From contig NC_045145.1 of the NCBI RefSeq assembly GCF_008831285.2, positions 17,004,040 to 17,068,039 of the forward strand: 64,000 nt of DNA. The letters run 5' to 3'. A program made the translations under genes and the position numbers. Positions 21,847-54,694 of the stretch are shown here, one piece after another. Positions within the stretch are counted from its first letter, which is position 1, and every line of letters starts with the position of its first letter. The notes under the pieces are model-generated. The model was not told where the DNA came from and made no database searches. It saw only the letters and a program-made list of their open reading frames with translations. This DNA comes from Nymphaea colorata. Its lineage: Eukaryota; Streptophyta; Magnoliopsida; Nymphaeales; Nymphaeaceae.

Positions 21847-23143
21847 ATGTCTTCATGCTTAGGAGTTGGTATCTCTTTCTTTTCGGCGATGAATTTCAAG
21901 AATGAGCATGAGATCCTTCTGGTGGGAGAAGGGGACTTCTCTTTCTCGCACAGCGTGGCTAAAAAGCTTGGTTCTGCAAGGAAAATGACCGCTACATCGC
22001 TAGATAGTAGAGGTACCTTCTCTCTCTTACTCTCTCTCGTTTTACCTTCTAGAAGGAACATGAAAAATTACCTACAGTCAACGGAGTATTTTGCTCAACA
22101 AACAGTAAGAATTGAGAACTCATAATGTACAAGATCTCTTCCCCTTCAATCTTCTACAAGCTAGGGAAACTCCAACGTTTCCTGTGGTTTCCTAAAGTGT
22201 GAGTTCATGAGCTTGATCAATGTAGATGGTCTTAATTTCTCTGTGGTTTCCTAAAGGGTTAGAGTTCATGAACTTGATCAAAGTAAATGGTCTTAATTTC
22301 TCTTCGCGCCTAGTGCCGTGTGATGCTCGAAACTGCATCTGAGATTAATTCCACAGAGGCTTAATTCTGTAAACTTAATTATTCTCAGAGGAGTTGAAGA
22401 AAATGTATGGGGATGCACAGCAAAATCTAGAGCAGTTGGCGAGAATGGGGTGCCTCTTGCTGCATGGAATGGACGCGACGACCATGAGCTCCCGCGACGA
22501 ACTGAGGGACAAGAGGTTTGACAGGATCGTCTTCAACAATCCTCGGGTCAGGACAGTAGGGCTGGACCATGACAAAAAGCAAATCAAGTGAGTGAGAACC
22601 GTCATCACCGCATGCACCAAATCAACTTGATCTGTGGTGTCAATGATAAGGATCTTGTGTTTTAATTGACGCTTTAGCTTTTAGAAGAATCAATGAAAAC
22701 TTTTTGCTGGCTATCAAGAAACTCAATAGTTTGTGAGGCCATCTAAATGCACGCAAAGATCACGCCTCCACAAAGTGTGCAACTGAACCGATTAATAAAA
22801 CATGTGGGAGCTAAAGAGGTCTTATTATTCGTCGTTGGAAATTTATTTGATTATGTGCAGGGAAAACAGAAAGCTAATGAAGGAGTTCTTTGAGAATGCG
22901 AGCGGGCTGCTCCGGCAGGGTGGGGAGGTGTACGTATCGGTGAAGACATGCGCTCCTTACAATGAGTGGAAGGTGGTGAGGCAGGCGGCGAAGACGGGTC
23001 TCTTCTTAGCAGACAAATATGAGTTCAAAATATCGGAGTTCCCTGGCTACACCAACAGGAAGGGAAGAGGAAAATCCTGCAACAAGACCTTCCCCCTCGA
23101 TAGTTGCTGTACTTTCGTCTTCAGGCACCTCCCTTATCTCTGA
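21847..23143 (+). CDS. BMT5-like (DUF2431) Rossmann-fold methyltransferase, copy A
   Basis: The family includes yeast Bmt5, which makes m3U in 25S rRNA; plant members are largely uncharacterised. Exons: 21847-22012, 22389-22587 and 22861-23143 (phases 1 and 2), giving 215 aa. The SAM-binding motif ILLVGEGDFSFS is in exon 1, followed by TATSLDS. Exon 2 carries LLHGMDATTM and FDRIVFNNPR, where most relatives have FNFPH. Exon 3 carries GGEVYVSVKT, NEWKV, SEFPGYTNRKG, SCNKTFPL and CCTFVFRHL, the usual C-terminal blocks. An in-frame ATG at 21838 is an alternative start. It is nearly identical to copy D in exons 2 and 3, including intron sequence, so the duplication is recent. Intron 1 has its own 59-bp tandem duplication. 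Confidence 0.85.
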
Positions 23144-24792
23144 AAAACTAGACAGCGTTCTCTCTCTCCCCCTTCCTTCTCTCCAACGGACTTTTAAGAG
23201 ATGATTTGATTTCCTTAGATGTTACAGGGGGAAGGCCATGAAGTTAAAAAACATGGATGCCCTGTTCTGTTGTAATGGTATACAGGAATGACTCTGTATA
23301 CCATGTCAATCAAAGAACGTACGCTTACCCAACAAAGTGCTAAATTAGAAAAGGATTGTTCTTTACGTTTGGCTTTTATCAGAGTTTGCCATGGTGGTCA
23401 TACATCTTCCTGCAATAGCAGGCAACTCAAACTAAGCAGCTAATTGAAGCAGGAAAAATGCCATACGAGATGCAATGATCTGTTACATATGACTATTGCC
23501 ATTTTAACCATATATTAATTTCATTCTTGCTGCGAACTTGGACCTGATCTGCTTGAGTTGGAAATACGCAGATTTTGGCGTCAAATAAAATTGCGTAAGA
23601 AGATAGTACACTGAGTTTTTCTTGAATACTTTCAGATTCTGTTTGTCCTACCGGGTCCTCATGAGTGTGTTGTTCAGATTTAAAGTTGATCATATCCAAA
23701 ACAACCAGTGACATCCTAGATTGCCGTTGCGTGAACTAGTTATTTCGAATGAAACGATGTCCATCGTTCATTAATTATCTCAGCATCACAGAAACGGTTA
23801 CCAGAATCCAGGGAGGTTTTCCTTTTATGGGTTGTTCAGATGAACAATGTGGAAGTGTATATATATATATATATATATATATGAGCTAAAATCCTTTGGC
23901 TATCCGGATGTTCCGACACAGCCTTATGCAACGCCGGACCATCTTGATGTCCGAAGAAATCTAAACCCTTTATGCGCACCACATACAATTATTTTTTAAA
24001 TTCAGAAAAATGAGAAAATAGAGTGTTACATGCCAAGATGGTTCGTCCTTTTGGAGTTTGAGTTCATGCGTTTTACGATACCAAATCGCCCATTCCTGCC
24101 CGCTCTTCATGTTTCTTGTCAAAGGTTTATGATACTGTTGTAACGTTGGTTTCTTTCGTCTGTTACGTTCACACAAGGAAACTTGTGTTGCTCTCCACGG
24201 TGAACGAGGGAATATCTGTTCAGTCTTCCTTTCCATCTGATTTGTCCATCATAAGATGAAAATAAAGTTGATTCAAAGTCGTTGTGTCCTTATACGTTTC
24301 TCATGACATTGAAATCGATTTTATTGCGTCAAATGTTGTTCTTGCTTGCTGAAGAAATTATTAATTTTAATTTGGCACTGATTAAAAAGCTCCAACGCCA
24401 AGACCGACTTCAAAATATGCTTAAAACGAACTGTGTGCAACAGTAACTCGATCGTCAGAAAAATTGGTAGTCAATTTTGGTGACTTTTTGTTTAAAAGTA
24501 TCAAACACATAGATTGATAGTGGAGAAGGCTGATTATGCTACAAAACATCTTTCTAGTTAGGGCAAGCAGTTGACCCAACAAATCCATGGATTCCTGTCA
24601 TCTTCATGACTGGCCGCTGTTGTTGAAGCTTTCACTCGTTTTGTCAACAGCTATCTCTGCCCAACACTAGTATAAACTATAAAGATTACTCTGGCAGAGA
24701 ACCATATTCATCGTCATGTTGGTCTTTCGGTTTGTCCAAACATATCAGCAACTATTTTTCCTACTTCAGGCATCGTCTCGATCGGCTGAACC
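21872..24792 (+). repeat. Segmental duplication unit A (gene A body plus 3' flank)
   Basis: From tctctttcttttcggcgatg in exon 1 to catcgtctcgatcggctgaac the unit aligns by eye with 39523-42747. Shared landmarks are both introns, the flank with ctagattgccgttgcgtg, a TA microsatellite (23858-23882 here) and a distal stretch (about 24040-24440) resembling intron 1 of gene C. Homology stops sharply at both ends. Confidence 0.85.
22183..22302 (+). repeat. 59-bp tandem duplication in intron 1 of copy A
   Basis: The segment from tgtggtttcctaaag to tcttaatttctc is present twice in a row here (22183-22241, 22242-22302) but once in the matching intron of copy D (about 39850-39910). It arose after the A/D duplication or was lost from D. 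Confidence 0.75.
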
Positions 24793-26082
24793 AGCAACCT
24801 GACTAAAGAAAATTCTTGTTTTACGACCTCCCTCCCTTTCATTCACTTGCTTACCACCATTACTAGTAGCGGAGATTCTGCTTGGTTCCAGCCGGCTGGG
24901 AATGGCCGACAGTTGTGCCAAGATGCTTTCTCGCCAAAAAAAAAAAGCTGCTTTACTGCCACCTCCTTTTTTTTTTATAGTAAGGAGAGAGTCGCCATGG
25001 GGACCAACTTTTCTAAAACTACGTGTAGAGAAGAATCATAAAAATGATGCACATATAAACCGAGTTTTAAAAACATATATATCATGACTAGTGGTATCGA
25101 ACTTTTTTTTTTCCCTTTTAAAAATTTGACGTACCACGAAAAGACTAACGCATTAGTTGGTAGCTAGGACGTACAATACCTTTAGAGATTCTCTCTCTCT
25201 TTATATATAATGGCGTCGCCTTGTGGCACAAGTTACATCAGCCTATTTAAATGGTAGGGGCAAGTCTCCATGACAAGGTTCGTACCTGCAAACAACGGTA
25301 GAGGCGACTAGAAAAGTGGGCTCGCTCCACTTCTGGTCACTGCTCTCAATTATCTTCTGTAGGCCTTCAGCTAGCTCTTCCTTAGCCGCCCGACGTTGTC
25401 CAAAGACTCCAAACGGCGCATGTTGCTTGAAGTGCTTCGTTTTTCCTCGTTTCGTTCCTTTTTTACAAGTGAAGGCATTTTCTTAAAATAATAGTTCCAC
25501 GGTCGTCCGGCCAATAGCCGGAATGGTCTGGACTTGACCTCCCTGGCCTTTCTTTTCGTTTTCCTTAATGGCTGGCCATGCACCCCAAATGGCAGATTTA
25601 GCCGGCACTATTTTCCGGCTGGTAAGCCGCCGGAAAATAGTTGTTAGTACGTATTTTTTAGTTTAAACTCATCACTCATTCCTTTCAGTTAGGGTTCACG
25701 CGGTTTAAAAAGTTTTATGAATAAAAAGAAAGGGAGATACTCAGCTTTGATTGAGGCGCCTCAAGACGGCTGCTGCACATTGACATTAAATCATCATCTA
25801 TTCTGTGCATCCCGTTTCTAATTTGTTATACACTTTTTGTATGATTATTAATTTGTTTTTTAAACTTATTTATACTCCTTCATATGTAGTTCTATGTTTT
25901 CTATATAGTCTCCTGGAAAACTACACAGCCAGCTTTCTAGTGTGTTCCAAATCTTTTTGCATTCTTCTACTGCTACCTCACAAAAGCTACTGGCATCCTT
26001 GCAGAATTGTTCTGGATCTACTTCTGAAGCTGGGTATTTATATGGTCCTACAATATTATCTTTTCCTTTTAAAGGTACAAGA
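24793..26082. other. Intergenic region between unit A and relic B
   Basis: No gene is recognised. It contains a perfect 13-bp inverted repeat, actattttccggc at 25607-25619 and its complement at 25629-25641, separated by 9 nt. This could fold as a hairpin or be the end of a small inverted-repeat element. The minus frame at 25371-25583 is lysine/arginine-rich with no family motif. Confidence 0.45.
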
Positions 26083-26428
26083 GCTAAAGAGGTCTTAATT
26101 ATGTGTCGTTGAAAATTTATGTGCATGAAAAACAAAACGTAATCAAGGAGTTCTTCGAGAATGCGAGCGAACTACTGCGCCAAAGGTGGGGAGGTCTGCG
26201 TTATCGGTGAAGACAGGCACTGAACTCCTCACAATGAATGAGTGGAAGGTGATAAGGCAGGCAGCGAAGGCAGGTGGTCTTTTCTTAACAGATAAATGTG
26301 AGTTCAATATATCAGAGTTCCCTGTCTACACCAATAGCAACGGAAGAAGAAAATCCTGCAACAAGCCCTTCCGTCTGGCTCTCGCTAGTTGCTGCACCTT
26401 CGTCTTCAGGCACTTCCCCTGTCTCTGA
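26083..26428 (+). pseudogene. Relic of BMT5-like gene (copy B), last exon only
   Basis: The segment aligns with the end of intron 2 and exon 3 of copies A and D (gagctaaagaggtctta, then the ENASELL-like and NEWKV blocks, CEFNISEFP, SCNKPF, CCTFVFRH). No exon 1 or 2 equivalent precedes it. The acceptor tgcag of A/D reads tgcat here, the reading frame shifts in the first 100 bases of the exon, and two to three extra codons lie around the CNK..SCC block. Glycine of the conserved PGYTN block is replaced by valine (PVYTN). It is therefore a non-functional duplicate, older than the A/D pair. Confidence 0.85.
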
Positions 26429-27173
26429 AAAACTAGACAGCCTCCACCCCGCCAGTGGAGTTTTAAGAGGTGATTTGATTTCTTGGGTGTTACAGGGCAA
26501 AGGCCATGAAGTTAAAAAAACATGGATGCCCTGTTTGTGAAGGTTTACAGGAATTGCTCTGCATGCCAGGTCAATTAAAGAAGCTGAGTTTACTGCGCAA
26601 AGAGCTAAATAAAAAAAAAACTGCCATTTACCTTGGGCTTTTATCAGAATTTTTCGGTTATACATCCCTTCATGCAACAGTAAAAGGCAACTCAAAGCAG
26701 CTTTAGTAGGAAAAAGTGCCATACAGAGATGCAATGCTGTGTTATATATGATTGTTACCATTTTAACCACATTTTTTTATCGACGCGAACTTGGACCTGA
26801 TCAGATTTTGCAAAATTCAGTTGGAAATACGCAGATTTAGCCGTCAATCTGATTCCGTAATAAGATTCTGCACTGAGTTCTTTCTTTCTTTCTACTTATT
26901 CTGTTTTTCCTACCGGGCGCGTATGAGCGTATTGTTCAGATTTAAAGTTGATCATATCCAAAACAACCACTCACATCCCCAGATTGCCGTTAGGTGAAAT
27001 AGTTATCTCCAATGAAATGATGTCCACCGTTCATTAATAATCTCAGCAAGACAGGAACAGTTACCGGAATCCGATGAGGTTTTACTTTACGGGTTGTTAA
27101 GATGACGATGTGGAAGTAAAAGATACACGATATATATATGCTGGAGTGATTGAGATTTTGCAAAATATTGAAT

Positions 27174-27220
<47 letters not shown>

Positions 27221-27732: not shown

Positions 27733-30700
27733 ATGGACTCACCAGAGAGAAGAGTCGGCCATTACTACGATACCCATCAGATTCTTGTTGTGGGTGATGG
27801 AGATTTTTCCTTCTCTCTTAGCCTCGCCGAGGGTTTTGGTGGCGCCACCAGCATGGTTTGCACTTCGCTTGACGATACGGGTATCTTGATATTTTCTTCT
27901 TTTGTCTTCTCCTGTTGCTTTGGTTTGTCCTTTCGCAGTTTGAGTTCATGCGCTGTACGATACCAAACCTTCCATTGATGCTTGCTTGTCACTTCTGTTA
28001 AAGTTTTTTTATACTGTTTTCTGAAAAAATGATAAAGTGATACTGTTTTTCCCTGGATTAACACTGCAGCAAATTTCTTCTTGCGGTTTCTCTTTGATAT
28101 ATAATTATAGTTTGCTTTCTTCCTCACTGTTCAAACAACTTCTGAGGAGAATTTGTTCGTTATGTCAGCAATATTCTGTCCCAAGGATCTCTGGTCAATC
28201 TTTTTCATTTTGTTCTCTCTTCGACTAGTGAACAATTGTTGTTTCCTTAATGGCAAAAGTGTACTTATTGATATGCTGGCTTTTTCTTTATTTAGTGATT
28301 ATATATATACTTCCCTTATTTAGTAGGGAAAGTATACTCTGTTCTTTCAAATGCTTACTTCAATAGAGTTGAAAGTTCTAATATTGTTTTTCGTTTCTCT
28401 TAAAAAAAATCTTTGCAGGGTTCGTATACCTATATAGTGAAGGATCAACCACTTATATTCTTGACTTATATTATCTAGGAAATACTTTGAAGGTTAGAAA
28501 CATAAGGTCAGTCGGCAATTTTGTTGTAACTCACCTTTTCATATGATCGATGAGCCTTTCGGCTGTTTGAGAACTTTAGTAGCACCGTAGCAGATGTTTG
28601 CGTCAACAGAGAAATTCAGTTTTAAATGGTTGTCATCATTTACCTCGATACATAGATTCGTAGATATTATTTTTATAATTAAAAAAATTGAACTGGGAGT
28701 GAGTTTGTGCATGTTCCACACTATTTTATACGAGATTAAGTAGTTTGGCGTTCTAATGGTCTCAAGAGTTCTGAAATTACAAGAAACTCTGATGTTCTGT
28801 TTGACCTTCTGAGTATGTGCTATAATAAGCCTTAAATCCTGCACCGTTTCCATTTTAAGCTGTTGTCTTTCTTAATTTCTAATCTTATTTACTATTCCAT
28901 GACTTAGCTGTGGTAAATGTTGATGTGAAGTCCATATTTAGATGTACTAGCGTTTAGATTTTCTCAACTTTGTCGGAAATGGGCAGAATGGAGAAAGGTA
29001 TCTACAACAAAAAAAATTCAGCAATAAAAATAACAAACTTAGCAGAAATCATTTCCTGCTTCACCATGAAGTTTGAAAAAGGAGCGTATATCCATCTCAA
29101 TTAACACAAAATAAAAAATCTGGAAATCCTTAAAGAATGGGTTTGATCGTGCATAGGCTATTAAGTTTAATTTGCTAACAGCTGCCTCATTTGCATCTGT
29201 GAAATTTAGAAGCCAGGATAGTCAGCTTTGCTTTTAGCCAGGCATGGAATTATAATTTGAATTCACATCAATATGACGCGGGTTGCTGGTGACACAGGTT
29301 AAATGCATTTAAAGTGGTCTGTCATTTTCTGCTTGTCTATGATTCCATTTCCCTAAAATGGGTCACAAATGCAGATGAGCTGAAGTTGAAATACCGGAAT
29401 GCTATGTCAAATATCAAGAAGCTTCTGGACTTAGGGTGCACAGTAAGGCATAAGGTTGATGCAACAAAGATGAGGTTGCACCCACACTTGAGGATGAGAA
29501 AGTTTGACAGAATCATATTCAACTTCCCACATGCAGGGTTCCATGGAAAAGAAGATGATAAAAGGTTAATCAGGCAAGTTATTTCTGTTTCTGTATTTCA
29601 TGCATTGTTTAACGGTCTTTTTGTTTCTCCTGACAATCTTGAGTGGCTGCTTAAGTAAGTTCTAAGAGTTTTATTTGCTGTTGTTCATAGCAGCATCATA
29701 TGGAACAAGCGTTGCTTATATTAAGAAGCACCATTATAATGTTGAAGACCTAAAACAGTACATCTCTTCATGAAAACTCAACATTCCAGATTCTAGTTAG
29801 ATATCTAGCTAGATGACTTGGTAGCAGAATGGACCTGTCATTGTCCCTGTGGTTCGTATGGGGTTTGTCATACCACATCCTACCCAAAACTGGTTCTGAA
29901 CACTAGAACTGAGAATGAATGCATGGAAGCCTTCCAATTCTAATTTCTAAGCCAGTTTCATCTGGGTTTCAGCCTTTGTCCTTTGTCCATCTGAATCCAT
30001 GTCTAAGTTGGGTACAAATTCCAATCTTAATACATGTAACTCTTGGGCAATAAGCTAGTTGGATACAGATATTGCTTTAGCTTTTCATGTCTAGATCTGA
30101 CCAACCTGAATCGTTTGTTGGGGTCTCATTGCAACTGTATCTTGCTGATATCTGAACTGAATGCGACCTAGTTACCTGTATCACATGGTTGTTTCAAGTA
30201 GGTTGATCCAACTCAATTCAAGTTCACACCAGGTGCACTGTGGGCGTGACTCTTAATTGATGGTTATTATAATACCTTATGAGTTATGAGCTAATTGAAG
30301 TGCATATATTTCTTTCATACTTATCTATGACAAAGAATTCATAGGCTTAGAGTTGCTATAGTTTAGGGTTGCCTCTTCTTTAAATGGACGTTGGGAGTTT
30401 CCTTCAAGACTGAAGCACCACCATAATTTTATTCTCAAAAATGTAAATTTCATTTTTTTTTTGTGTTTTTACAGACAGCATAGGAAACTGGTGAGAAGTT
30501 TCTTCTCAAATGCAATTTTCCTTCTTCGCCCCTATGGGAAGTTCATGTTTCTCATAAAACTAGTGAACCATTTAACCAATGGAATCTTGAGGATCTTGCT
30601 GTAAGGTCAGGTTTTCTGTTAGTTGACTGCGTCAAATTCGAGAAGAGTGATTATCCTGGTTATAATCACAAGCGGGGATCTGGTACCCGTTCTGATGAGC

Positions 30701-31476
30701 CTTTCCCGTTAGGAGAGTGCAGAACCTTCAAGTTTCAAATAAGGAGCTTCTTGAAGGTTGGGGCACCAACAAGTGCTAGACGACCAGAGACAGAGAGCGG
30801 CGTTGTACATGGTGTCTACCTTCCTGAATTGCTGCAGGCCAGATATGAGTTCCCAAGACCTGATTCTCTTTGCCACAAGTTCTGTCAGACCAATTACGAG
30901 TACCCAAGGAGTATTATTGACAGAAGTTCTTGTTTAGCTGTTGGTTCTCCGAGACTCCCGGGTTCTGAAAGCATCAACCACCATCCGCTTATTCCAGGCT
31001 CTTATTTAGCTATTGGTTCTCAGAGACTCTCGGTTTCTGAAAGCATGACCTGCCGTCAGCTGATCCCAAGCTCTTATTTGCATGTTGGTTCTCTGAGACT
31101 CCCAGAATCTGGAAGCATCAACCGCCATCAGCTTATTCCAAGCTCTTATCCATCTGTTGGCTTTTTTACACGCCCGGAATCTGAAAGCATCAGACACCGT
31201 CAGATAATTCGTGATCATGGTCAAGAACTTGCTGATCCTTTCAGGGACACGTATAATGGATGTGGGGAACAATCAGAATGGTTCAGAGAGGCTTTTCATC
31301 ATTATTACAGTTACTATTCTGGATGCTTATCTGCAAAATCCCCCAAATCACTTTATGAGGCTGAAAGAGATCTCCAACTGCAACATAGATATCAAGAACT
31401 TTGTGGTAGAGATAGCAGGTCTGCTGAACTGCAACGGACCCTGCAAAATGGCCCTGTCAGTGGGTTCAGGTTTTGA
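27733..31476 (+). CDS. BMT5-like (DUF2431) gene C with one frameshift and a repeat-bearing C-terminal extension
   Basis: Exons: 27733-27880, 29375-29573 and 30475-31476. Exon 1 holds QILVVGDGDFSFSLSLAEGF (motif I) and CTSLDD. Exon 2 (199 nt) holds GCTVRHKVDATKMR and FDRIIFNFPHAGF and ends at a GC donor (ATCAG/GCAAGT). Exon 3 starts HRKLVRSFFSNA, in frame with exon 2. Near 30536-30540 one base is missing relative to E and F, so the block expected as GEVHVSHKT is out of frame while the DYPGYNHKRGSG, PFPLGECRTFKF and extension blocks continue open in another frame to 31476. The extension (about 245 residues) contains four 24-residue repeats. The open frame continues upstream of the chosen ATG to about 27620 (GC-rich, proline/serine/arginine-rich), so an earlier start or upstream exon is possible. 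A recent pseudogene or an assembly error would both fit. Confidence 0.75.
30928..31215 (+). repeat. Four tandem 72-bp (24-residue) repeats in the C-terminal extension of gene C
   Basis: Units 30928-30999, 31000-31071, 31072-31143 and 31144-31215 are all exactly 72 bp and begin tct(tgt/tat). At protein level each reads about S-(Y/C)-x-x-(V/I)-G-(S/F)-x-R-L-P-x-S-x-S-I-x-x-x-x-L-I-P-S. The exact codon-length period keeps the frame, suggesting expansion while the region was translated. Confidence 0.9.
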
Positions 31477-38003: not shown

Positions 38004-38831
38004 TTGAAATGTTAATTTGAGGTTGCCTAACAGTTTTCCTGAAGCCTTGTCCGCAGACTCCAAAAAAGCACTGGGATTCTGGAAAGGAAATAAGCAACAA
38101 AGACTTGAAGGCAAGGCAATTAATGGCATCCAAGAGAGGGCGACCGAGATTCCCTGTGCGGAAATCGGGAGATATAGAAATGTCCGCTGGATTCGATCGG
38201 GCACCAGAGTCTTCTGGAACAAATTCGGTTGAATCATGAGAACAAGGGTGGGATGATAACTGCACAACTGGCGATGGCGTCTTGAGAAAAGGTGTGGAAG
38301 AAGAGAAGATAATGAAAACGTGTCAGAAATCAGCAGCCAAAACTAAAACGTCTCAGATCAAACTGCACGCACGCCTGGGTTAGTGTTGTTCTCTCATTAT
38401 TAGAAGACAGCGTGCAAATCCTCGTAGCGCGTGAAGGAGGTGCATTCACCGCCATGCTGAAAAGAACGTCGAAGAGAAAAACTAGGGGACTCACCATGAA
38501 AAAATTGAGGCGACGTGCATGACAGCACGACCATCGACCGACTGACTTGGAGTGAGGGGCTATAATTGCCCAGCGCACGCACCATCCCAAAGAAACCCGA
38601 TCTTGATGCTTCGAGCATGAGGCAGCTGGGCGAACGATGGGACGAGACAATCGCGGTGCCGTCGCAAGCAACTAACTATGATGGGAGACAACCTACCTGT
38701 ATTGCCGACGTATAATCATCGACCAAACAGACGGGGGACGGGCTGGAAGAGCAGCTGATGGGGACCCAAATGTCTCCAAAGGCCGGTTTCTTCTTCTTAT
38801 TCTTCTGCTTTCATAACAGGGTGTTAAGAAC
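38004..38831. other. GC-richer intergenic stretch before the gene D upstream block
   Basis: Minus-strand open frames here (for example 37987-38267 and 38330-38671) have no motif I can name. The higher GC content and the minus orientation would suit the 5' part of the neighbouring LINE, but this is only inference. Confidence 0.35.
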
Positions 38832-39526
38832 GAAGAACATCGAATAGGACGAAGAGTGGATGCATGCCGACCACATTAAAGCAATTTAATCTCTTGTCAA
38901 AGTTCCGCACATGCCGAGCACCACCAATCTCCACCCAAGCGAGAGGAAACAGAGGATCCATCTGTGAAAAATCTTGATCAAATCAATCATTTTGGAAGCA
39001 AAAACTTTTAGATGAAGGCCTTCAAAATCTCCTCAGAAAAGCAAGTTCGCCTTCGGTGGGCATTACGAGCTTAAACGGTACTAGAAGTCTAGAAACCGAA
39101 ATCCAGTAGAGATAATGAAGAAGCAGAGGAGGGGAGAGATCGGGACTCCCATATCGACATTATCTGAATTTCCCCATGTCAGATAACACGAAATTGGTCG
39201 CTAAGTTTTTCCCAACATTTTTCTTAAGATGGAAGTTGCCGTAGAAAAAACGCTTTCGGTTCACATGTACAACCCCATTAACCAAAAGATCACCTTTCCC
39301 ACTGAAGCATGAAAGATCCAACAATCTCATTAAATCGACAATCTTGTTTCGAATTCGAAGGGATATTGAAAAGAAAAGCAGCATAGTATTTCCTTGGAAA
39401 CAACTAAAAGCTAATAATAAACAAGATGCGGCGTATAGATAAGACGACTAGATGCCGCGTATATATCAGACGACTAATCTCCTTCACCCATACAACATTT
39501 CCCATGATGGTGAGCAGAATAGTCTC
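38832..39526 (+). repeat. Upstream block of gene D, paralogous to the upstream block of gene E
   Basis: From gaagaacatcgaataggac to the first codons (atggtgagcagaa) this block matches 42800-43095 joined to 48131-48475. Shared landmarks are gagaggaaacagaggatcc, gatgaaggccttcaaaat, tggtcgctaagtttttccca and gtacaaccccattaaccaaa. It carries no retrotransposon, so it serves as the empty site for the element in the E block. It ends just where homology with unit A begins (39523). Confidence 0.85.
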
Positions 39527-40737
39527 TTTCTTTTCGGCGATGAGTTTCAAGAGTGTGCATGAGATCCTTCTGGTGGGAGAAGGGGACTTCTCTTTCTCAC
39601 TCAGCGTGGCTAAAAAGCTTGGTACTGCAAAGAAAATGACCGCTACATCGCTAGATAGTAGAGGTACCCTCTCTCTCTACCTCTCTTGCATTTTCCTTCT
39701 AGAAAGGACATGAAAAATTACCTGGCATTCGTGAGAATACAGTCAACGGAGTATTTTGTTCAACAAACAGTAAGAACTAAGAACTCATAATGTACCAAGG
39801 CCTCTTCCCCTTCAATCTTCTACAAGCTAGGTAGACTTCAACATTTCCTGTGGTTTCCTAATGGGTTAGAGTTCATGAACTTGATCAAAGTAGATGCTCT
39901 TAATTTCTCTTCTTGCCAAGTACCGTGTGTTGCTGGAAACTGCTTTTGAGATTAATTCCGCAGAGGCTTAATTCTGTAAACTTAATTATTCTCAGAGGAG
40001 TTGAAGAAAATGTATGGGGATGCACAGCAAAATCTAGAGCAGTTGGCGAGAATGGGGTGCCTCCTGCTGCATGGAATGGACGCGACCACCATGAGCGCCC
40101 GCGAGGAACTGAGGGACAGGAGGTTTGACAGGATCGTCTTCAACAATCCTCGGGTCAGGACAGTAGGGCTGGACCATGACAAAAAGCAAATCAAGTGAGT
40201 GAGAACCGTCATCACCGCATGCACCAAATCAACTTGATCTGTGGTGTCAATGATAAGGATCTTGTGTTTTAATTGACGCTTTAGCTTTTAGAAGAATCAA
40301 TGAAAACTTTTTGCTGGCTATCAATAAACTCAATAGTTTGTGGGCCATGTAAATGCGAGCAAAAACCACGCCTCCACAAAATGTGCAACTGAACCGATTA
40401 AATAAAACATGTGAGAGCTAAGGAGGTCTTATCATTTTATTTGATTATGTGCAGGGAAAACAGCAAGCTAATGGAGGAGTTCTTTGAGAATGCGAGCGGG
40501 CTGCTGAGCCCGGGTGGGGAGGTCTACGTATCGATGAAGACATGCGCTCCTTACAATGAGTGGAAGGTGGTGAGGCAAGCGGCAAAGTCGGGTCTCTTCT
40601 TAGCAGACAAATGTGAGTTCAAGATATCGGAGTTCCCTGGCTACACCAACAGGAAAGGAAGAGGAAAATCCTGCAACAAGACCTTCCCCCTCGATAGTTG
40701 CTGCACCTTCGTCTTCAAGCACCTCCTTTATCTCTGA
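39504..40737 (+). CDS. BMT5-like (DUF2431) methyltransferase, copy D (chimeric 5' end)
   Basis: Exons: 39504-39663, 39996-40194 and 40455-40737 (phases 1 and 2), giving 213 aa. Exon lengths 2 and 3 (199 and 283 nt) equal those of copy A. Motif I is ILLVGEGDFSFSLSVAKKLG. Exon 2 has FDRIVFNNPR, with the same departure from FNFPH as A. Exon 3 has GGEVYVSMKT, SEFPGYTNRKG and CCTFVFKHL. The first codons (MMVSRIV) match the MVSRKV start of copy E, while everything from SFFSAMSF on matches copy A. The gene looks intact. Expression is likely driven by an E-type promoter, by inference from the upstream paralogy. Confidence 0.87.
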
Positions 40738-41493: not shown

Positions 41494-42747
41494 GAGCTAA
41501 AATCCTTTGGCTATGAGGATGTTCCGACACAGCCCTATGCAACGCCGGAACATCTAGATGGCCGAAAATCTAAACCCTTTACGCACACACATACATTTTT
41601 TTTTTTTTAAATTCAGAAAAAAGAGAAAATAGAGTGTTACATGCGAAGATGGTTCGTCCTTTTGGAGTTTGAGTTCATGCGTTTTACGGTACCAAATCGC
41701 CCATTCCTGCCCGCTCTTCATGCTTCTTGTCAAAGCTTTATGATACTGTTTTAACGTTGGTTTCTTTCCTCTCTGTTACGTTCACACAGGGAAACTTGTG
41801 CTGCATTTCTTCACTGTGAACGAGGGAATATCTGTTATTAGTTCAGTCTTCCATTCCATCTGATTTATCCATCGTAAGATGAAAGTAAAGATGATTTAAA
41901 GTCGTTGTGTCGTTATACGATTCTCACGAAGTTGAAATCCATTTTATTGCTTCAAGTGTTATTGTTGCTTTCTTCGAGACTTTTGGCTCTTCTAGTTTCA
42001 TGGTAGTTACCGTTACATTTGTAAGAGAACAATGGCATGGTTGGTCTTTTCATTAAACGCAGGTTTTGCTAATATTTTTAGGCATTGGTTCCTTGCATAT
42101 TAATTAGAACCTTATAATCCTGTGAAAGCTTCCCCTGGCATGCTTCTGAAAAAATGATCAATTAATATTGTTTTTCCTTGGATTAACACTGCAGCAGGTA
42201 TCTTTTTGGAGTTTCTCTTTCATATATAATTATGGTTTGGCACTTATTAGAAAGCTCCGACGCCAAGACCAACTTCAAAAATATGCTTAAAACTAGCTGT
42301 GTGCAGCAAGAACTCGATCGTGAGAAAAATTGGTAGTCAATTTTGGTGACTTTTTGTTTAAATGCATCCAGCACATAAATTGGTAGTGGACAAGGCTGAT
42401 TATGCTACAAAACATCTTTCAACCTAGGGCAAGCAGTGGACCCAACAAGTCAATGGATTCCTCTCATCTTCATGACTCGCCGCTGTTGTTGAATCTTTCT
42501 CTCGATTTATCAGCAGCTATTTCTGCCCAACACTAGTATAAAGATTACTCTGGCAGAGAACCATACTCATCGATCCATTGGTGGGTCGGCAGAGTGGAGA
42601 GCGACAGGAAGGGTGATGGGAGAGACAGGGAGCGAGTGGGGAGAAAAGGGAAAGAGCTTTTGTATTCATCATATTGGTCTTCTGGTTTGTCCAAACATAT
42701 CAACAACTATTTTTCCTACTGCAGGCATCGTCTCGATCGGCTGAACC
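39523..42747 (+). repeat. Segmental duplication unit D (copy of unit A)
   Basis: This matches 21872-24792 through the gene body, introns and 3' flank, including a TA microsatellite (41460-41491). About 41650-42235 it also matches parts of gene C intron 1 (ttcatgcg..tacg.taccaaa, ttggattaacactgcagca, tttctctttcatatataattat) although no C-type exon lies nearby. D holds about 400 bp inside this relic (about 41740-42130) that intron 1 of C lacks. Confidence 0.82.
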
Positions 42748-42799
42748 CCCAAGCTGGGGGAATGATGGAATGAGACAGGGCAGGTGCCGTCGCTTTGAA

Positions 42800-43095
42800 G
42801 AAGAACATCGAATAGGACGAAGAGAAGAGAGGATGCAATGCCGACCACAATGAAAGCAATTTAGAGTTTAAGGTGACGCACGCCGAGCACAACTAATCTC
42901 CACCCAAGCGAGAGGAAACAGAGGATCCATCTGTGAAAAATTTTGATCAAATCAATCATTTTGGAAGCAAAAGCTTTTAGATGAAGGCCTTCAAAATCTC
43001 CTCAGAAAAGCAAGTTCGCCCTCGGCGTGCATGACGAGCTTAAACGGTACTAGAAACCGAAGTCCAGTAGAGATAACAAAGAAGCAGGAAGGAAG
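42800..43095 (+). repeat. Upstream block of gene E, distal part
   Basis: This matches 38832 to about 39135 upstream of gene D and is interrupted at 43095 by the copia element. The block resumes at 48131. It is the distal part of the gene E upstream region. Confidence 0.82.
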
Positions 43096-43432
43096 TGTAA
43101 AGAAGAGACAGCAAGAAGAGAGCTCAAATATTGAGGGAACACTAAAAGAATTGTGTCTCGCATTCATTGAATTGAACCTCCAAAAAGAATATATACAACA
43201 TGGTTACACAGGAGCAAAGGGAGAAATTAGTTACAAAACTGTTACAAGGATGCGGTGAAGGATATTTCAGCAACCACTTGAAAGAGAAGTCTCTACAGAT
43301 ATTTACAACGGAATTTAGAAAGGGGAATCATCAATTGTGCAGAATTGATGACTAGTACTTTTACAACTTCATAATTCATTAGTGCTGTCGATTATTGTTC
43401 CTTTTCTTTAGTAAGGGTAACTGTCTTTAACA
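43096..43432 (-). repeat. 3' LTR of the copia element
   Basis: It pairs with 47808-48130. It holds one block of about 30 bp absent from the other LTR, and is bordered inside by a purine-rich tract (read on the minus strand). Confidence 0.92.
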
Positions 43433-46400
43433 CCCCATCCTCAAACTGGGCATATGGATCACAAAGGCCAAGTTTGCCTTTCAAGAAGAGGAACTGATCC
43501 AAGCTAATGGATTTGGTGAACATGTCAGCAACTTGATACTGGGATGATACAAATCTGGTCTCGATCGTTCTGTGCCTCACTAGATCTCTCACTACATGGC
43601 AATCTAGTTCCACATGCTTGGTTCGTTCATGCTTCACTGGATTGGCAGCCATCTGCAAGGCTGACTTGCTGTCACTGAAAACCAGGACTGAGTCTAAGTG
43701 TTGCACTGTGAGATCTACTAGTATGTACTTCAGCCACAAGATTTCACAGCAAACATTAGCCATGGCACGATACTCTGCTTCGGCGGATGATCGTGACACA
43801 GTAGGCTGTTTTTTTGATTTCCATGAAATCAAACTACCACCGAAGAAGACGCAGTAACCTGAAACTGAGCGTCTAGTATCCCTGCAGGCTGCCCAGTCGG
43901 CATCACAATACGCTTTCAACTCATAGTTACAGTTTTGAGAAAACAATAAGCCTTGCCCAGGATTTTTCTTCAGATATCGTAACACCTTCATGGCTGAGTC
44001 TAGATGTGTTGTAGTTGGTTGCTGCATGTGTCTACTAAGGACATGGACAGAAAACATAATGTCTGGACGAGTTATTGTGAGGTAAATCAGCTTACCAACC
44101 AACCGGCGATAAGTGGTTGCATTCTTCAATGGCTGCCCATCAGTTGCTGACAGGTTGAGTCGATATTCTATTGGGGTTTCCATGGGCTTTGCGCCTAGCA
44201 GTCCGACTTCATCTAACAAGTCACATGTATACTTGCGCTGAGTGAGGAGAATGCCCTGTTTTGTACGAGTGAGTTCAAGACCTAAAAAATACTTCAAATC
44301 TCCTAGATCCTTCATCTTGAAGCAATTTCTCAAGTAATCTTTGAAGTTTTGAATACCCTCCAGGTTGTTGCCACAGATGATCAAGTCGTCCACATACGCC
44401 AGCATAGCTATGAACACATTTCCAGATGTGAGATCAGCTCTGGACTGGTTGAAACCATAGGACACAATTGCATCAGAAAGTTTCACAAACCAACAACGAG
44501 GTGACTGCTTCAGTCCATAGATGGACTTATTTAATTTGCAGACCATCTTGTTATCACATTCTTCATAGCCAGGTGGGAGTGCCATATAAATCTCTTCCTC
44601 CATACTTCCATTTAAGAACGCGTTGTAAACATTCATTTGATGAATGAACCAGTTCTTCTTGGCTGCGACTGCAATCATACATCGGACTGTGACGAGCTTT
44701 GCGACTGGTGCATAGGTTTCTTGTTAATCCAGTCCCTCAGTTTGTGCAAATCCCTTAGCCACTAGTCTGGCCTTAAACCTCTCAACTTCGCCACTGGCTT
44801 TATACTTGATGCGGTAAATCCATCTGCAGGGTATAGGCTTCACATTGGGCGGAGGAGCAACAAGCATCCAGGTTTTGTTTGCTTCCAACGCATCGATTTC
44901 TAACTGCATTGCCTTCCTCCAGTTTGGATCCTGCTCGGCTTCACTAAATGAAGTAGGCTCAGTGTGTTTTGAGATATTCAGCAAGAAGGCTTTATGAGGT
45001 TGGGAAAAGGAGTTGAAAGAGAGAGCTTGAGAAAGGGGATACCTGGTGACCTCTTTCATTCTCAACAGCGACGGGTCTGATGATCCTTGAGTGGCCATGT
45101 TACAGTAAAAGTCCTTCAACAGTACTGAGGGTTGGCTTTTGCGAGTTGATCTTCTCAAGTGAGGAGGAGGAACCTGTGGCATCGGTTCAATCGGTGGGTC
45201 AAGTTCAATAACAGTTGTTTGTTGTGTTACAGGGTTTGGCAGATTTGTGGCATCAATTCTTTCACTAACAGTTGGCTCATTGAGTTGGGAAGGTGTGCGC
45301 TCTGCTTCTTCATGAACAGGACTGTCAAGGGGAGTTAATGAAGGACTATTTTCTGAAACGTTATATTCATCAAACATGAAGGGCAACACAAACGGAGATG
45401 ATTCATGACTCAGCAGTTTGAAGGGAAACAACTTTTCATTGAAGATTACATCACGGCTTGTGAATATTCTCTGGTTTTTAAGGCTGTAGAGTTTGTAGGC
45501 TTTTTGTCCAAAGGGATACCCCAGAAATACGCATCTTTCAACTCTTTGGTCAAATTTGTGTTTGGGTTTTAGGTTGGTAGCAAAGCAAAGACAACCGAAG
45601 ACGCGTAGGTGAGCAAGAGACGGTTTTTTGCCAAACATCATTTCATATGGAGTTCTATTTTGTAGGCTTACTGAAGGCGTCCTGTTTATCAGGTAAGTGG
45701 CAGTGAGGACACATTCATCCCAAAACGTTATTGACAGTCCAGATTGAATTTTCAAGGCTCTCGCCACATTTAGTATGTGCCAATGCTTTCTCTCTACAAC
45801 GACGTTTTGCTGAGGAGTGTAGGTGCAGGTGTGTTGATGGTCAATTCCATGCTCCAACAGAAGTTTTTTCATTTCGTCAGAGAAGAACTCTGCACCATTG
45901 TCGGTTCTCACCTTAATGACATTGTGATGGTATTGTCTTTCAGCTAGAGCAATGAAAATTTTCAAGTGCAGGTAAGTTTCGCTTTTGAACTTCATTAGGT
46001 AGATCCAAACAGACCTGGTGTAGTCGTTGACGATGGATAAGAAGTAATGGGCACCTGAGAATGAAGCTTTCGAATAAGGTCCCCAAATGTCGCAGTGAAG
46101 AAGTTCAAGAGGAGCAACAGAATGCACTTTACTGGATTCAAACGAGAGTCTAGATTGTTTAGACAACTTGCAGACATCACAAAAACTGTTTGATTGTTTG
46201 ATGTTTATATCATATTCAGAAAACAAGATATTTTTGGTTGGTGAAGGATGTCCTAATCTAATATGCCACAGATCTGTCGGGTCATGGTTACAGTTCAGGA
46301 TTGAGGCTGTTGGTTGTGTCGATGAGAACTTGTAGATGTAAAGGCCACCTCGCAGTTCAGCCAGACCAGTCGTTGTCTTGAAGGTCGGGTCCTGCAAGTA

Positions 46401-47807
46401 GCAACAAGTAGAAATGAAACAGAGATGGTAATCAGTTTGGTTCAACAACTTACTGACAAAAATAAGGTTGAAGTGAAAATCAGGTATGTAGTAGACATTT
46501 TTGAGAACTAGATCAGATGACAGAACTACTTGTCCAACGTGCGACGCTTGGACGATTCGATTATCAGGGAGTTTAATAGGGAAAGGAATTGAAAGACATG
46601 TAACTTCAAACATGTTGAACAAGGAAGATGACAAGTGGTGACTTGCACCACTATCGATAATCCATGCACAGGGAGATAAAGATGACAGACCTGCGAACGA
46701 GGTAAGTGGTGTTGATCGGTCCTTGAGTATTTGCTTCAACTGTAAAAACTCTTCAGCAGTGAAAGCAAGAGCAGGTTCCTTACCGGAGTCATTTGATTGG
46801 GCATTGGAAGTTGCAGCGATGAAGGCAGTTTTGCTTTGGTCACCACTGTTTGGCTTTGACACTTTATCTCCTTTGATCCTGCCTTCTCTAAAGTTTGGGG
46901 GGTATCCATTCAGTTTGAAGCAGCGCTCTCTGGAATGACCTGTAATATTGCAGTGGTTGCAAAAGTATGTTGGCTTCTTTCCACTTCGATTTCTGAAGTT
47001 GCGATTGTCATAACTAACAGAGAGGTTGATGTGATCGTTTGAGGGAGGTTGCATTCTTGCCTCCCTTTGCTTTTCTTCCTGAAGAATCAACGAGTAGACT
47101 TTGGTGACTGAGGGCAAGGGATCCAATAGCAGTATCTGACCTCTCACAGTATTGAAGGTGTCGTTCAGGCCCATCAGGAATTGGATGACCTGGACTTCAT
47201 GTTGTTTCTCCAAAATTTCCTTTAGGACACCACATGAACAGGTAGGCAGAGCATCGTATGAGGAGAGCTCGTCCCAATAAGATTTCAGTTGGGTATAGTA
47301 GGCTGCAACAGAAAGCGTGTTTTGGGACAGACGACCAATGGCACATTTTATCTGATACTTCCTTGGTGTAGAGCTCTGGGTGAATCGTTCCTTCAGATCA
47401 TTCCAGACTTCAGCAGCAGTGGTGGCATAAATGACGCTTTGCACAAGTTCCTTCGAGATTGAGTTTAGGATCCAAGAGAGGATCATATCGTTGCATCTCT
47501 TCCAAGCAAAAAATTCAGGGGATGAGGTATCAGGTTGAACCAACGTACCGTCAATGAAGGCAACTTTGTTCTTAGCAGACAGTGCCATCGTCATAGCTCT
47601 GCTCCAGGTTGAGTAGTTGTCACCGTTCAGCGCTTGTGACACCAGAATGGAGCCAGGGTTGTCTGAGTGATGGAGGAAATATGGATTTGCTAGATCAGCG
47701 GCAGATGCATCAAATGCTGAGTTGAGACCAGCAACAGCAGAAGGCTTGCCTTGCGTAAATGCCTGATGCCTATTTTGAGGAGAAGTTTCCATCGCTCTGA
47801 TACCAAA

Positions 47808-48130
47808 TGTAAAGAAGAGACAGCAAAAAGGCAACAGAACAGAAACAGAGCTCAAATATTCAGGGAACACTAAAAGAATTGTGTCTCGCATTCAATGAAT
47901 TGAACCTCCAAAAAGAATATATACAACATGGTTACAGAGGAGCAAAGGGAGAAATTAGTTACAAAATTGTTACAAGGATGCGGTGAAAGATATTTCAGCA
48001 ACCACTTGAAAGAGACAAAGGGGAATCATCAATTGTGCAGAATTGATGACTAGTACTTTTACAACTTCATAATTCATTAGTGCTGTAGATTATTGTTCCT
48101 TTTCTTTAGTAAGGGTAACTGTCTTTAACA
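47808..48130 (-). repeat. 5' LTR of the copia element
   Basis: It pairs with 43096-43432. The primer-binding site lies immediately inside it, confirming that the element reads on the minus strand. Confidence 0.92.
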
Positions 48131-48475
48131 GGGAGAGATGGTGAGAATTTCCCCACGAAGCAGATAACACAAACTTGGTCGCTAAGTTTTTCCCATCATT
48201 TTTCTTAAGATGGAAGTTGCCGTAGAAATGACGCTTTCGGTTCAAATGTACAACCCCATTAACCAAAAGATACCTTTCCCACAGAAGCAAGAAAGTTCCA
48301 ACAATCTCATTAAATCCACAATCCCCTTTCGAATAAATGTTCCATTCGAAGGGTGAAAAGAAAAGCAGTACAGTATTTCCTTGGAAACAGCTAAAAAGTT
48401 AAGACGACTAGATGCCCTGACGGCCAGTCTTCTTCGTCCATACAAAATTTCCCACGATGGTGAGCAGAAAAGTCT
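48131..48475 (+). repeat. Upstream block of gene E, proximal part
   Basis: This matches about 39136-39526 upstream of gene D, up to and including the start codon region. About 326 bp separate the copia LTR from the E start codon, so the core promoter is probably kept while distal elements have been moved 5 kb away. Confidence 0.82.
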
Positions 48476-50048
48476 GCAGAAAACTAGAATCAGCAGACGC
48501 TCTGCTCGAACGGATAGAATTTCTCGGCTGCGATGAGGTCTCCAGGATCTACTTTCCGGATGAAGATCCCTTGAATCGAGTGGTAACGAAGGGACTCAAG
48601 AAGGGATATATCGTGAACTACAGCGAGTGGGAGGAGATTCTGCTGGTGGGTGAGGGAGATTTCTCCTTTTCTCTGGGTTTGGCTAGAGCCCTCGGAGATG
48701 GAACAAACATGATCGCTACATCTTTGGATAGACCAGGTACCAACCTCAGTCTTCTTCTTTCTCTTCTCTCTATCCCACTCTGGCAGATGAACACCTCTGC
48801 TTGGCTTCCGCAATAGCACTGGAGCTTGGAAAACCTTTCACACTTAATAGAGTTGCAAATCTCCATAAAAATGCTCATATATTCTTTACATGCGAGCAAG
48901 CAATGTGCCAATTCGCCTGGTTCTGCTGCGAGAGTTGCGATACGCTAGCAGAGCACATTTTCGAAGGTTGGCACAAGCCAATTTTGTCATGATCAAGCCA
49001 ACGTTCCATTTTATATGGGAAATGGTTGAACTACTGTAATTTGTTCTGGTAACCAGCAAAACGCAGTTATGTTTTTGAGGAAAATGTTCTTGAGAGGGAA
49101 GAAGGGAGAGAGAAAGATGACAGCAGGTAAATCTGCTTTCTATTTAAAACAGAATAACAATGAAATTCCTTAGTACAATGACCTTTTTATTTCAAACTCT
49201 TAAAAATGGACAGCTTTTAATTTGTTGTTTAATACTCTTGCTTGTTTTATAGTGAGAACTTTGGTAAATCACTCTATATAATTCTCATATTTACTCATTT
49301 CAGGTTAAACAGTCTTTACAGTACATGCACGTCTTCTAACTTTTGGAATAAATGTTATTGTGATGTATTTTCTCAACTGTTGCGCAGACAATCTCCACAG
49401 AAAGTACAGTAATGGTATAGAGAACGTAAGAGAACTAAGGGCACTAGGATGCAGAGTGCTGCATGGCATCGCTGTGAGATGGATGAGCAGGCATGCCTTC
49501 CTCCAATCCAAAAAATTTCATAAGATTGTCTTCAATTTTCCATACGCAAACCTTCGATTTCCGGATGAATGCGAGAAGCAGATCAGGCAAGCGGTTTCAT
49601 AATTTCCTACTGTCTCTCTCTCATTCATATATATATATAGATATATATATTTCATTTCATGGCATGAAATATACGTGGCAGGCTACACCGGGACTTGATG
49701 AAAGGCTTCTTCTCCAATGCAAGAGCGCTGCTAGCTGAGGGTGGTGAAGTTCATGTTTCGCACAAGCTGACGTACCCATATGATGAATGGCATGTGGAAG
49801 AGATAGCAGAACATAATGGGTTACAATTGATTAAATGTGTTCCGTTTCGGATCAGTGACTACCCAGGTTACAGCAACAAGAGGGGATACGGAAATGATGG
49901 ATTGTCTGATACATCTTTTCCTTTAGGAGCGAGCGGCACCTTCAAGTTCACAGCAGCTGATCAGAACTCTGTCCGTCCGCGACCTACGCCGACGTGCTTC
50001 CCTGTCATCTGCCGTCGCCGGAAAATATCGAAGAGAGAGGTTGTATGA
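48457..50048 (+). CDS. BMT5-like (DUF2431) methyltransferase, copy E
   Basis: Exons: 48457-48736, 49388-49586 and 49682-50048 (phases 1 and 2), giving 281 aa. Before motif I (ILLVGEGDFSFSLGLARALG) it has about 60 residues unlike the other copies (FPDEDPLNRVVTKGLKKGY). Exon 2, again 199 nt, has GCRVLHGIAVRWM and FHKIVFNFPYANL and ends at a GC donor (ATCAG/GCAAGC). Exon 3 has GGEVHVSHKLTYPYDEW, SDYPGYSNKRGYG, DTSFPLGASGTFKF and then a basic tail of about 29 residues (RPRPTP, CRRRKISKREVV) that could act in nuclear or nucleolar targeting; this is inference. All frames are open. A copia element sits in its upstream region. Confidence 0.87.
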
Positions 50049-52033: not shown

Positions 52034-54694
52034 ATGGGTCAGAAGGAGCGAAAGAGGAAAGCAGCCTTCCCGCATGCTGCGGTGGTGGGCTTCCCGTCGC
52101 AGAATTCCGGTCCCTTGGCCGCGGTACCGCCGGGTTTCCTGACTCCCGGTTTGCCGTCGGCGTTCTCTGCCCTTTCTCTGTCCAATCTTCCCGAGATATG
52201 TGAGCACTCGGTTTCTTTTTGTAAAGTTCTTGTGTTTTTGTTCATGCAAGTATTACACATCTCCGGCTTGGCTCCTTCTTCTTTCTCTCCTCTCTTTCCC
52301 TCTCCCTCCTTTTACTCGCCTCTGTTGGCATATTCTGTCTGTTCGGAGATTTTCCTTTTTCTTTCGAGTCTCATTTTGCCTCTTGTATATTCTACTTTGG
52401 GGTTTTTCTTTTTCTTTTTAGTATTAGTTAGCTTCTTTTAGCTGTTTAGATTTTCTTTTCCACCATTTATACGCCAAGAGGCCAGCTGATGGACTTGAAT
52501 GTTATGCGATACAACATGGGTTCAAAGAGAAAACAAAGGCCCTGAAGTTAAAAGAAGAAAATCGTGTAGAAGATTTTAGGACTCAAAGATTAAGAATTTA
52601 AGATACCAATAATTACCTTGTTCACAAGTCTTTTTTTTCTTTTGTTCGGGTTACTGTCGCAGGAACTCAAGGCGAAGAATCTGTTTTGATTTAAAACCCA
52701 TTTTGTGTTATACTCACTCAAAATAATCTGGTAAGCAGCTTCGGAGTTGTCTTGATCTTGTTCCTCTGCTTTTCCTTCTTCTCTTGGTTGGGGTTTGTTT
52801 TTTAGAGTGAGGTGATTCTAAAGTTGCATACATCCATGAAATGGGAATCATTTAACTAAAATCCTTTGATTTTGTTGTAATGCAGATGCGGTTTTCTTTG
52901 AATTTTGTATTCTGATGTCATGTTGCTGTATGCCTTTACTTCCACTTCTCCATCTTTTGGCCTTTTCGTTGTTTCAATAGGTTATTGTTGCTTGGTCATG
53001 TTTGTAGTCTAGGTGTTTTATAAATTCTAGTGCTAATTGAAGATCAGTCTTTCCGTCCATGACAGGTTATCCGAACTTAGGACTTCATACTGGGTATACA
53101 CGTATTGGGCACTACTCTAGCTGCCACAGTATTCTCCTAGTTGGTGAAGGGGATTTCTCATTTTCTCTAAGCTTAGCAAAGGCTTTTGGTCATGCAAGTC
53201 ATATGGTTGCTACTTCTCTTGATACTCCAGGTAATCTCTCTCTCTCTCTCTCTCTCTCTCGCTCTCTCTCAAGAAAGTAAGATCTTAAATGTAAAGTATG
53301 ACATTGGGTTCCGTATAAATGACGTTGGTCATCCTAGAAATCTTCACTGCGATGTACTTTAGAACTAAAACAGCTAGTGTAGCGTGTAATGGCTATCCTT
53401 AAGTCTTAATATATTTTATGTAAATTCTTACTGCCTTGCAGAGACCCTAAACGATAAGTACCGATTTGCGATGGAGAATGTAAGGGAGCTGAGAGCATTG
53501 GGTTGCCGTGTGGGGCATGGGATTGATGTGAAAACTATGACCAGCAACGTCTTATTGTGCCTGTGTTATCTAAAGTTCGACAGGATTGTATTCAACTTTC
53601 CTCATGCAGGCTTTGAGTACCCTGAAGAAGACGTCAGGCAGATCAAGTGAGTTATGAACGCTTCATAGTGTGCTCTGTTTACTCTTGGGGCTTTAAGTAT
53701 GTCACCTTCATAAATTATGATGTACGTCCTCGTAGTTTTCTAGTTTAAACAATGAGGTAGCCGCTCTTATAAAAATACAAGACTCACCCAAGTTGTCTCA
53801 ACAAGGTTTCAGCTTACATGTGGAAATATGTTTTCATGAGAATGGGCATTTATTTTCATTTTTCACATGACACAGTCGATATTGTCAAGACTTGGAGAAA
53901 AAGTAATTCTCATGAATCTTTCTGTTTAAATTTTTGAAACTAAATTTTTATGAGAAATCCTTAACTGTGCACTGATCCTCAGCATAACTTCAAGTAAAGC
54001 AGACCTAGGATTTGGTGGCCGATCTGTTAAGGCTTGAAATGGGGTACATGAAAGTCATTTGACAAACTCTGTATGAAATGAAGGAAATGACACCAACCAC
54101 GGTCCTCAAGAGCATATACAGATGAGAAAAAGCTAAATCAAAGATCAACCATTCGCTGAATTTATGTTTAAACTTGGCCTTTAACTTTGGTATGACTTAG
54201 TTAACGGCAGTAGGGGAGCTACATGGTGGCTAGTGTGGGCAGTTGCCCACATCAGCCTCACAAACTTTGCTTGTTTTTATGTTAATAATTTCATATATTT
54301 GGTTGTTTACATTAGAGGTGCCCCTTAACATTAAGGTTATTGAACTAGTGCCCCATCAGCCAAAATTTTGTCTCCACTAATGGTTAACCGGTGAAATGTG
54401 TCTATTGGTCATTGTAGGATGCACAGGAGATTGTTGAAGGGTTTCTTTCTGAATGCAAAGGAGATGCTGCTCGAAGATGGTGAAATTCATGTGACCCACA
54501 AGACCTCGTCTCCTTTTAAGGAGTGGAATCTGCAGCAGAAAGCAGAAAGAAGGGGACTGGTTTTAGTAGAACGTGCTCCCTTTAATATCTGCGATTATCC
54601 TGGCTACTTCAACAAGAGAGGTTACGGTGTGGTTAGTGACACCTCGTTTCCCATAGGACGCTGCTGCACCTTTAAGTTCAAGCTGAAAAAATGA
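52034..54694 (+). CDS. BMT5-like (DUF2431) methyltransferase, copy F
   Basis: Exons: 52034-52199, 53066-53230, 53442-53646 and 54418-54694 (phases 1, 1 and 2), giving 270 aa. Exon 1 (MGQKERKRKAAFPHAA, then a proline/serine/leucine-rich stretch) joins exon 2 in phase (NLPEIC/YPNLGLHTGY), but it has no family homology, so its coding status is less sure than the rest. Exon 2 carries ILLVGEGDFSFSLSLAKAFG. Exon 3 (205 nt, two codons longer than in the other copies) has GCRVGHGIDVKTM and FDRIVFNFPHAGFEYPEEDVRQIK with a normal GT donor. Exon 4 has GEIHVTHKTSSPFKEW, CDYPGYFNKRGYG, DTSFPIGRCCTFKFKLKK. It keeps the family consensus best and is a good candidate for the conserved member. A long CT microsatellite follows exon 2. 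Confidence 0.87.
53231..53272 (+). repeat. CT microsatellite directly after the exon 2 donor of gene F
   Basis: The donor gtaatctc runs straight into about 16 CT/TC dinucleotides with a single G interruption. Confidence 0.85.

Follow-up and report, generated by a model that had tools for sequence, protein, structure and literature searches.

Six loci resembling BMT5-like (DUF2431) methyltransferase genes stand one behind the other in the genome of Nymphaea colorata, and the question they raise is whether such an array records a recent burst of diversification, a set of plain rRNA enzymes kept for dosage, a few working genes among decaying ones, or an old cluster that has since been reshaped. 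The family in question, PF10354, consists of class I, SAM-dependent methyltransferases and takes its name from yeast Bmt5 (YIL096C), the N3-methyltransferase of U2634 in 25S rRNA. We analyzed a stretch of 64 kb (C8:17004040-17068039, hereafter the window) and searched the genome (407.8 Mb, 783 contigs) with the PF10354 profile and with the protein of gene A; both genome searches were first-look, and their counts are lower bounds. Most of the array is an old tandem cluster; its family is known and its type unremarkable, A and D being the odd pair. The exon models of A, C, D, E and F were built by hand, without transcripts, and the loci, together with a sister locus on another contig, are as follows.

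21838..23143, plus strand: gene A, exons 21838-22012, 22389-22587 and 22861-23143, 218 aa; alternative in-frame ATG starts at 21847 and further in
26081..26428, plus strand: relic B, the end of an A-type intron 2 plus exon 3
27733..31476, plus strand: gene C, exons 27733-27880, 29375-29573 (GC donor) and 30475-31476
39504..40737, plus strand: gene D, exons 39504-39663, 39996-40194 and 40455-40737, 213 aa, intact
48457..50048, plus strand: gene E, exons 48457-48736, 49388-49586 (GC donor) and 49682-50048, 281 aa, intact
52034..54694, plus strand: gene F, exons 52034-52199, 53066-53230, 53442-53646 and 54418-54694, 270 aa, intact
Contig C3: gene G3, three-exon model, 330 aa

In the profile search PF10354 (curated cut-off, 24.7 bits) was matched by A, C, D, E and F, all on the plus strand. 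The model was covered nearly end to end by A (174.4 bits, E-value 3.1e-51), D (175.1 bits, 2e-51), E (173.8 bits, 5e-51) and F (180.9 bits, 3.2e-53), and C matched in two pieces, before a frameshift (135.1 bits, 3.8e-39) and after it (40.7 bits, 4e-10); E-values of this size indicate that the matches are not due to chance. The genome search with the PF10354 profile did not pick up B, which was detected through its similarity to A. The preliminary description, which had placed six plus-strand loci of the BMT5-like (DUF2431) family close to these positions, was right in both respects, the six being five PF10354 genes and one relic. Genome-wide, the profile matched at least 18 times (15 matches in the window, 2 at G3 and 1 in a fragment on contig C2), and the search with the A protein also brought out relic B and, at C8:14.07 Mb, a relic of 28 residues. 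A bigger hidden family was considered and not seen, the profile search having matched just the array, G3 and the C2 fragment. An A-type exon 3 fragment with a stop codon lies at C2:25599925-25600122 (L021:1-128). Scans for tRNA and Rfam families across the 64-kb window returned none.

The spliced frames of A, D, E and F are intact in the hand-built models, F having four exons and A, C, D and E three. Not every feature that had been ascribed to all six loci is general. Motif I (VGxGDFSF, presumably SAM-binding) is present in A, C, D, E and F, with the form VVGDGDFSFS in C, and A, C, D and E have an exon 2 of exactly 199 nt; in F its counterpart is the third exon, of 205 nt, and in B neither the motif nor the exon was found. 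The terminal PGYxNxxG and CxTFxF blocks also vary, E ending in GASGTFKF, without the block's Cys, and C carrying PGYNHKRG. N-termini and tails diverge strongly among the copies in the protein alignment. The 199-nt exon is followed by a GC donor (ATCAG/GCAAG) in C (29574) and E (49587), and the same intron has a GT donor in A, D, F and G3; the donor common to C and E could reflect either descent from one source or parallel change.

The age of the array was approached through the divergence of its copies. A and D are 91.9% identical in the core and 88.7% over the whole protein, and the other 14 pairs of A, C, D, E, F and G3 share 42.6-56.9% and 40.6-54.6%, respectively. Among themselves, the lineages of the array (A/D, C, E and F) cover that same core range, and they are 42.6-55.8% identical to G3; F shares 56.9% with E, 55.8% with G3 and 54.1% with C, and C is closer to F (54.1%) than to G3 (50.0%). 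In the 14 pairs other than A-D, pS is 0.66-0.90, at or near saturation, so that C, E, F and G3 can be ranked by age only loosely. Taken together, the core identities and near-saturated synonymous sites point to A, D and B as the only recent copies, and these three alone are closer to one another than to relatives off the array. When A, C, D, E, F and G3 are placed in a tree rooted at its midpoint, A+D stand firmly apart on a long branch and G3 falls among C, E and F; E+F are joined with support of 86/88, and the program starred one of the three inner branches. With the row of a bacterial relative added, two of the four forks are open.

That the whole array arose in a recent burst specific to this lineage, with diversifying selection at work, is close to what had been proposed at the outset and is consistent with the recent A, D and B copies, with the long A/D branch and with the grouping of E and F, the E-F identity being slightly above that of F-G3. 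Nevertheless, the array lineages are about as similar to G3 as to one another, and dN/dS between A and D is below 1. The identities, the place of G3 in the tree and the pS values point, within the one genome compared, to separately diverged lineages, a pattern which the preliminary description had itself named as counting against its proposal. We consider such a burst quite improbable and set it aside on the core identities and pS; the idea fits A, B and D only. Even for A and D the term near-identical was generous, their exons being 93.6-97.5% identical. They differ at 12 of 124.2 synonymous and 15 of 457.8 nonsynonymous sites (dS 0.103, dN 0.034, dN/dS 0.32), indicating purifying selection (Fisher P 0.0062, on rounded counts). 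This ratio and the intact frames of E and F indicate that the copies are not all evolving neutrally. Between A and D, K2P amounts to 0.040 in one intron and 0.099 in the other, and to 0.087-0.096 in the 3' flank. Intron 2 (22588-22860 versus 40195-40454) is 96.1% identical, intron 1 90.8% and the 3' flanks 91-92%; the higher identity of intron 2 hints at gene conversion.

The surroundings of G3 bear on the older part of this history. To the left of the array, at a distance of 8.7-17 kb, are genes for a cation-efflux protein (PF01545, PF16916) and for eIF5A (PF21485, PF01287), and relatives of both are found on the same side of G3 and in the same order, the entire block being on the opposite strand. 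The flank genes duplicated with G3 have a pooled dS of 1.30 (nine pieces, 567 codons; 0.57-3.2 per piece) and a pooled pS of 0.617, below the 0.66-0.90 of the array pairs, with two of the nine pieces reaching 0.74. To the right, comparison of 114 kb of C8 with 120 kb of C3 gave two weak matches only, and one short match, oppositely oriented, falls within the array (35185-35334). The same pair of neighbours, two flank genes on one side, indicates that the array and G3 probably derive from one duplicated segment. Most likely both go back to an old duplication, either segmental or of the genome, after which several copies were retained in the array and one at G3.

Traces of later turnover are found between the genes.

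24039..24139, plus strand: C-type intron 1 relic in the 3' flank of A, 78.2% identical over 101 nt to 27921-28018
41650-41752, plus strand: C-type intron 1 relic in the 3' flank of D, 78.6% identical to 27921-28020
42144-42239, plus strand: second C-type intron 1 relic in the 3' flank of D, 86.5% identical to 28019-28114
38624..39525, plus strand: D upstream region with the first codons, several pieces of which are homologous to the E upstream region
42752..43087, plus strand: distal E upstream region, 86.4% identical, with gaps, to 38832-39126, and 42 nt 78.6% identical to 38624-38665
43096..48130, minus strand: Copia-type LTR element with gag, integrase and RVT_2 domains, splitting the E upstream region
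48145..48475, plus strand: proximal E upstream region and first codons, homologous to those of D

From B to C the order is relic B, TA repeat, gene C. Behind both A and D, pieces of C intron 1 come after a common 3' flank and TA repeat, and no C exons were found there. Relic B also includes A-type 3' flank, 80.6% identical to that of A and 82.2% to that of D; when aligned with A it shows six insertions, of which four have lengths that are not multiples of three, and its exons 1 and 2 were not found. From this block order and the C-intron remnants we infer that the copied unit paired an A-type with a C-type gene, and that the copies lost opposite members. Diverged A-, C-, E- and F-type copies stand side by side, with the relative G3 at the probable duplicated sister segment. 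In the array the two-gene unit would have been copied; one copy would have kept C while its A-type gene decayed into B, and the other would have kept its A-type gene, lost C and then been copied again to yield A and D. The order of these events is likewise a reconstruction.

Outside the array, a relic at L023:5118-5514 (C8:14.07 Mb) is 88.8% identical to B over 321 nt and also holds an 86-nt piece matching 25793-25876; the two pieces adjoin there, and their counterparts lie about 420 nt apart in the window. The match indicates that a copy of B, or of the parent of B, reached a place 3 Mb away. A hAT transposase C-terminal domain (PF05699) lies at 63208-63507 on the minus strand of the window, and a relative of it lies near the C8:14.07 Mb relic.

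The 5' regions tell a separate story. Homology between A and D begins at 21872/39523, 19 nt inside the D frame, and the D/E-type upstream region is absent from A, having been lost or never present; A and D thus combine alike proteins with unlike 5' regions. The two long pieces of the D and E upstream regions are 89.7% and 88.2% identical, gaps aside (K2P 0.112 and 0.129); D thus has an upstream region and first codons of the E type, and A lacks both. In the Copia element, one in-frame stop separates two long frames, and 9 of the 310 sites aligned between the LTRs differ (K2P 0.030; 84.6% identity if gaps count). Since this divergence is below that of the D/E upstream pieces, the insertion was probably the later event. 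Within the D/E upstream region, a piece of about 100 nt (38832-38933) has counterparts of 78-82% identity on C9 and C2 and elsewhere on C8, indicating that the region holds a dispersed repeat.

In the last exon of C, a 1-nt deletion relative to its relatives shifts the frame near 30536-30543, and the two resulting pieces match the two parts of the PF10354 domain. Beyond the shift C is open as far as 31476, with a C-terminal tail of about 245 residues that holds a 72-nt repeat in 3.7 copies (30924-31192) and for which the genome search returned no relatives beyond itself. This long open tail suggests a recent frameshift or an assembly error, and the latter could be the explanation. Rescue through another splice site was rejected by eye, the frames around the shift being different phases of one exon with no natural junction between them. 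The C frameshift, relic B, the lack of a D/E-type upstream region in A and the many changes of A and D at conserved sites would all fit a reading in which A, C and D are decaying pseudogenes and only E, F and G3 are functional. The 218 codons of A and 213 of D are, however, intact, both genes have GT-AG splice sites, and the A-D dN/dS of 0.32 (P 0.006) indicates constraint; we regard this reading as rather unlikely. With most copies old and diverged, one sub-group recent and C apparently broken, what is seen is mainly ordinary gene-cluster turnover.

The changes in A and D fall at notable positions. The active-site-like loop, which in its NFP[HYF] form we take to be motif IV, reads NFPH in C, F and G3, NFPY in E and NNPR in A and D; HV(S/T)HK is kept in C, E, F and G3 and reads YVS(V/M)K in A and D, where both histidines are replaced. 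In a balanced count, in which one A/D row was kept and each lineage judged against four rows, core columns changed where the four other lineages agree number 18 for A or 17 for D, 7 for C, 6 for E, 3 for F and 2-3 for G3; with both A/D rows kept, they number 16 for A/D, 8 for C (one a masked codon), 6 for E, 3 for F and 2 for G3. The many changes at conserved sites, together with the A-D dN/dS, suggest a lineage that changed fast and was then held. We take A and D to be altered yet conserved proteins, perhaps non-catalytic ones, in which the catalytic step may have been changed or lost and SAM binding retained. E, F and G3 are predicted to be active SAM-dependent RNA methyltransferases. On this evidence we favour, with fair assurance, the reading of an old tandem PF10354 cluster reshaped by unequal recombination, in which A and D would have been selected for a changed or lost activity.

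Relatives outside plants are few. To our knowledge the family is mainly eukaryotic, and the one relative confirmed among 137 pattern-matching stretches on prokaryote contigs, a protein of a Chlamydiae MAG (L035:1441-2060; PF10354 E-value 1.6e-28), was unexpected and may reflect contamination or transfer. Like C, E, F and G3 it keeps the NFP of the active-site loop; unlike the plant copies it is bacterial, with 26-29% core identity to all six. At the 16 columns changed in A/D, it has the plant majority residue at 6 and the A/D residue at 2. None of 39 pattern-matching viral stretches was confirmed as a relative, and a sequence search with F alone found no relative of solved structure (best E-value 0.65, chance-like).

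Among described systems, the nearest is yeast Bmt5, whose family model A, D, E and F match over nearly its full length; compared through that family model, the plant copies differ from it in their N- and C-terminal parts and in being multi-copy, and A and D in their altered motif. The array shares the DUF2431 family with At1g55790 and with At4g26485, presumably also an Arabidopsis DUF2431 gene, a likeness of annotation, and its DUF2431 label with wheat TraesCS5B01G254900, a likeness of description. A table on cotton fibre gives At1g55790 the entry 'Unknown function (DUF2431)' (PMC3904472), and the wheat gene, in the Ph1 region, is a DUF2431 protein gene without known function that was expressed in meiotic RNA-seq (PMC6288783). 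Plant DUF2431/BMT5-like genes look little described in the literature searched: no functional study of a plant member was found there, passages of PMC10416466 and PMC6459958 included, most subscription journals being outside its scope, and nothing was found in it on proteins called BMT5-like or on a uridine-N3-methyltransferase in Arabidopsis.

As for the target RNA, we take tobacco numbering to run +3 from that of yeast, human m5C4447 to be tobacco m5C2873, and tobacco m3U2956 to be the equivalent of human m3U4530 and not of the Bmt5 site. For the tobacco 80S ribosome, four base modifications are described in the 25S rRNA, and the sole m3U of the main text is m3U2956, at the tunnel wall (PMC10281867). 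Papers of 2020 and 2022 give the enzyme for human m3U4530 as unknown (PMC7379855 and PMC9240639), a review places a human m3U at 4513 instead (PMC9695239), and m3U was among the RNA modifications measured in Arabidopsis (PMC10433931). That every member is simply a housekeeping enzyme making m3U in rRNA, retained for dosage, would agree with the five PF10354 matches and with what is reported for yeast, namely AdoMet binding by YIL096C (PMC3153492) and U2634 methylation attributed to BMT5 (PMC7694415). We nonetheless judge it unlikely, given that A and D replace the NFPH loop and both histidines of HV(S/T)HK, that N-termini and tails differ strongly, and that the only m3U of the tobacco main text is, by the numbering assumed above, not at the Bmt5 site. 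It is only a guess that plant PF10354 proteins are candidates for the m3U2956 writer, and the different site on which yeast Bmt5 works speaks against it. A bolder version, to which we give very little credence, would have plant PF10354 proteins make m3U2956 instead of the Bmt5 mark, with A and D as a conserved pseudo-methyltransferase pair that has taken on a novel and perhaps regulatory role, D being driven by an E-type promoter and A by another.

A two-gene unit whose copies lost opposite members, and an upstream region that D and E have in common and A lacks, are clear examples of tandem-array turnover and not a new type of system. For the family, the cluster offers a set of natural paralogues, canonical and altered, in which to ask which of them writes the m3U of plant 25S rRNA and whether any of the others have moved away from rRNA.
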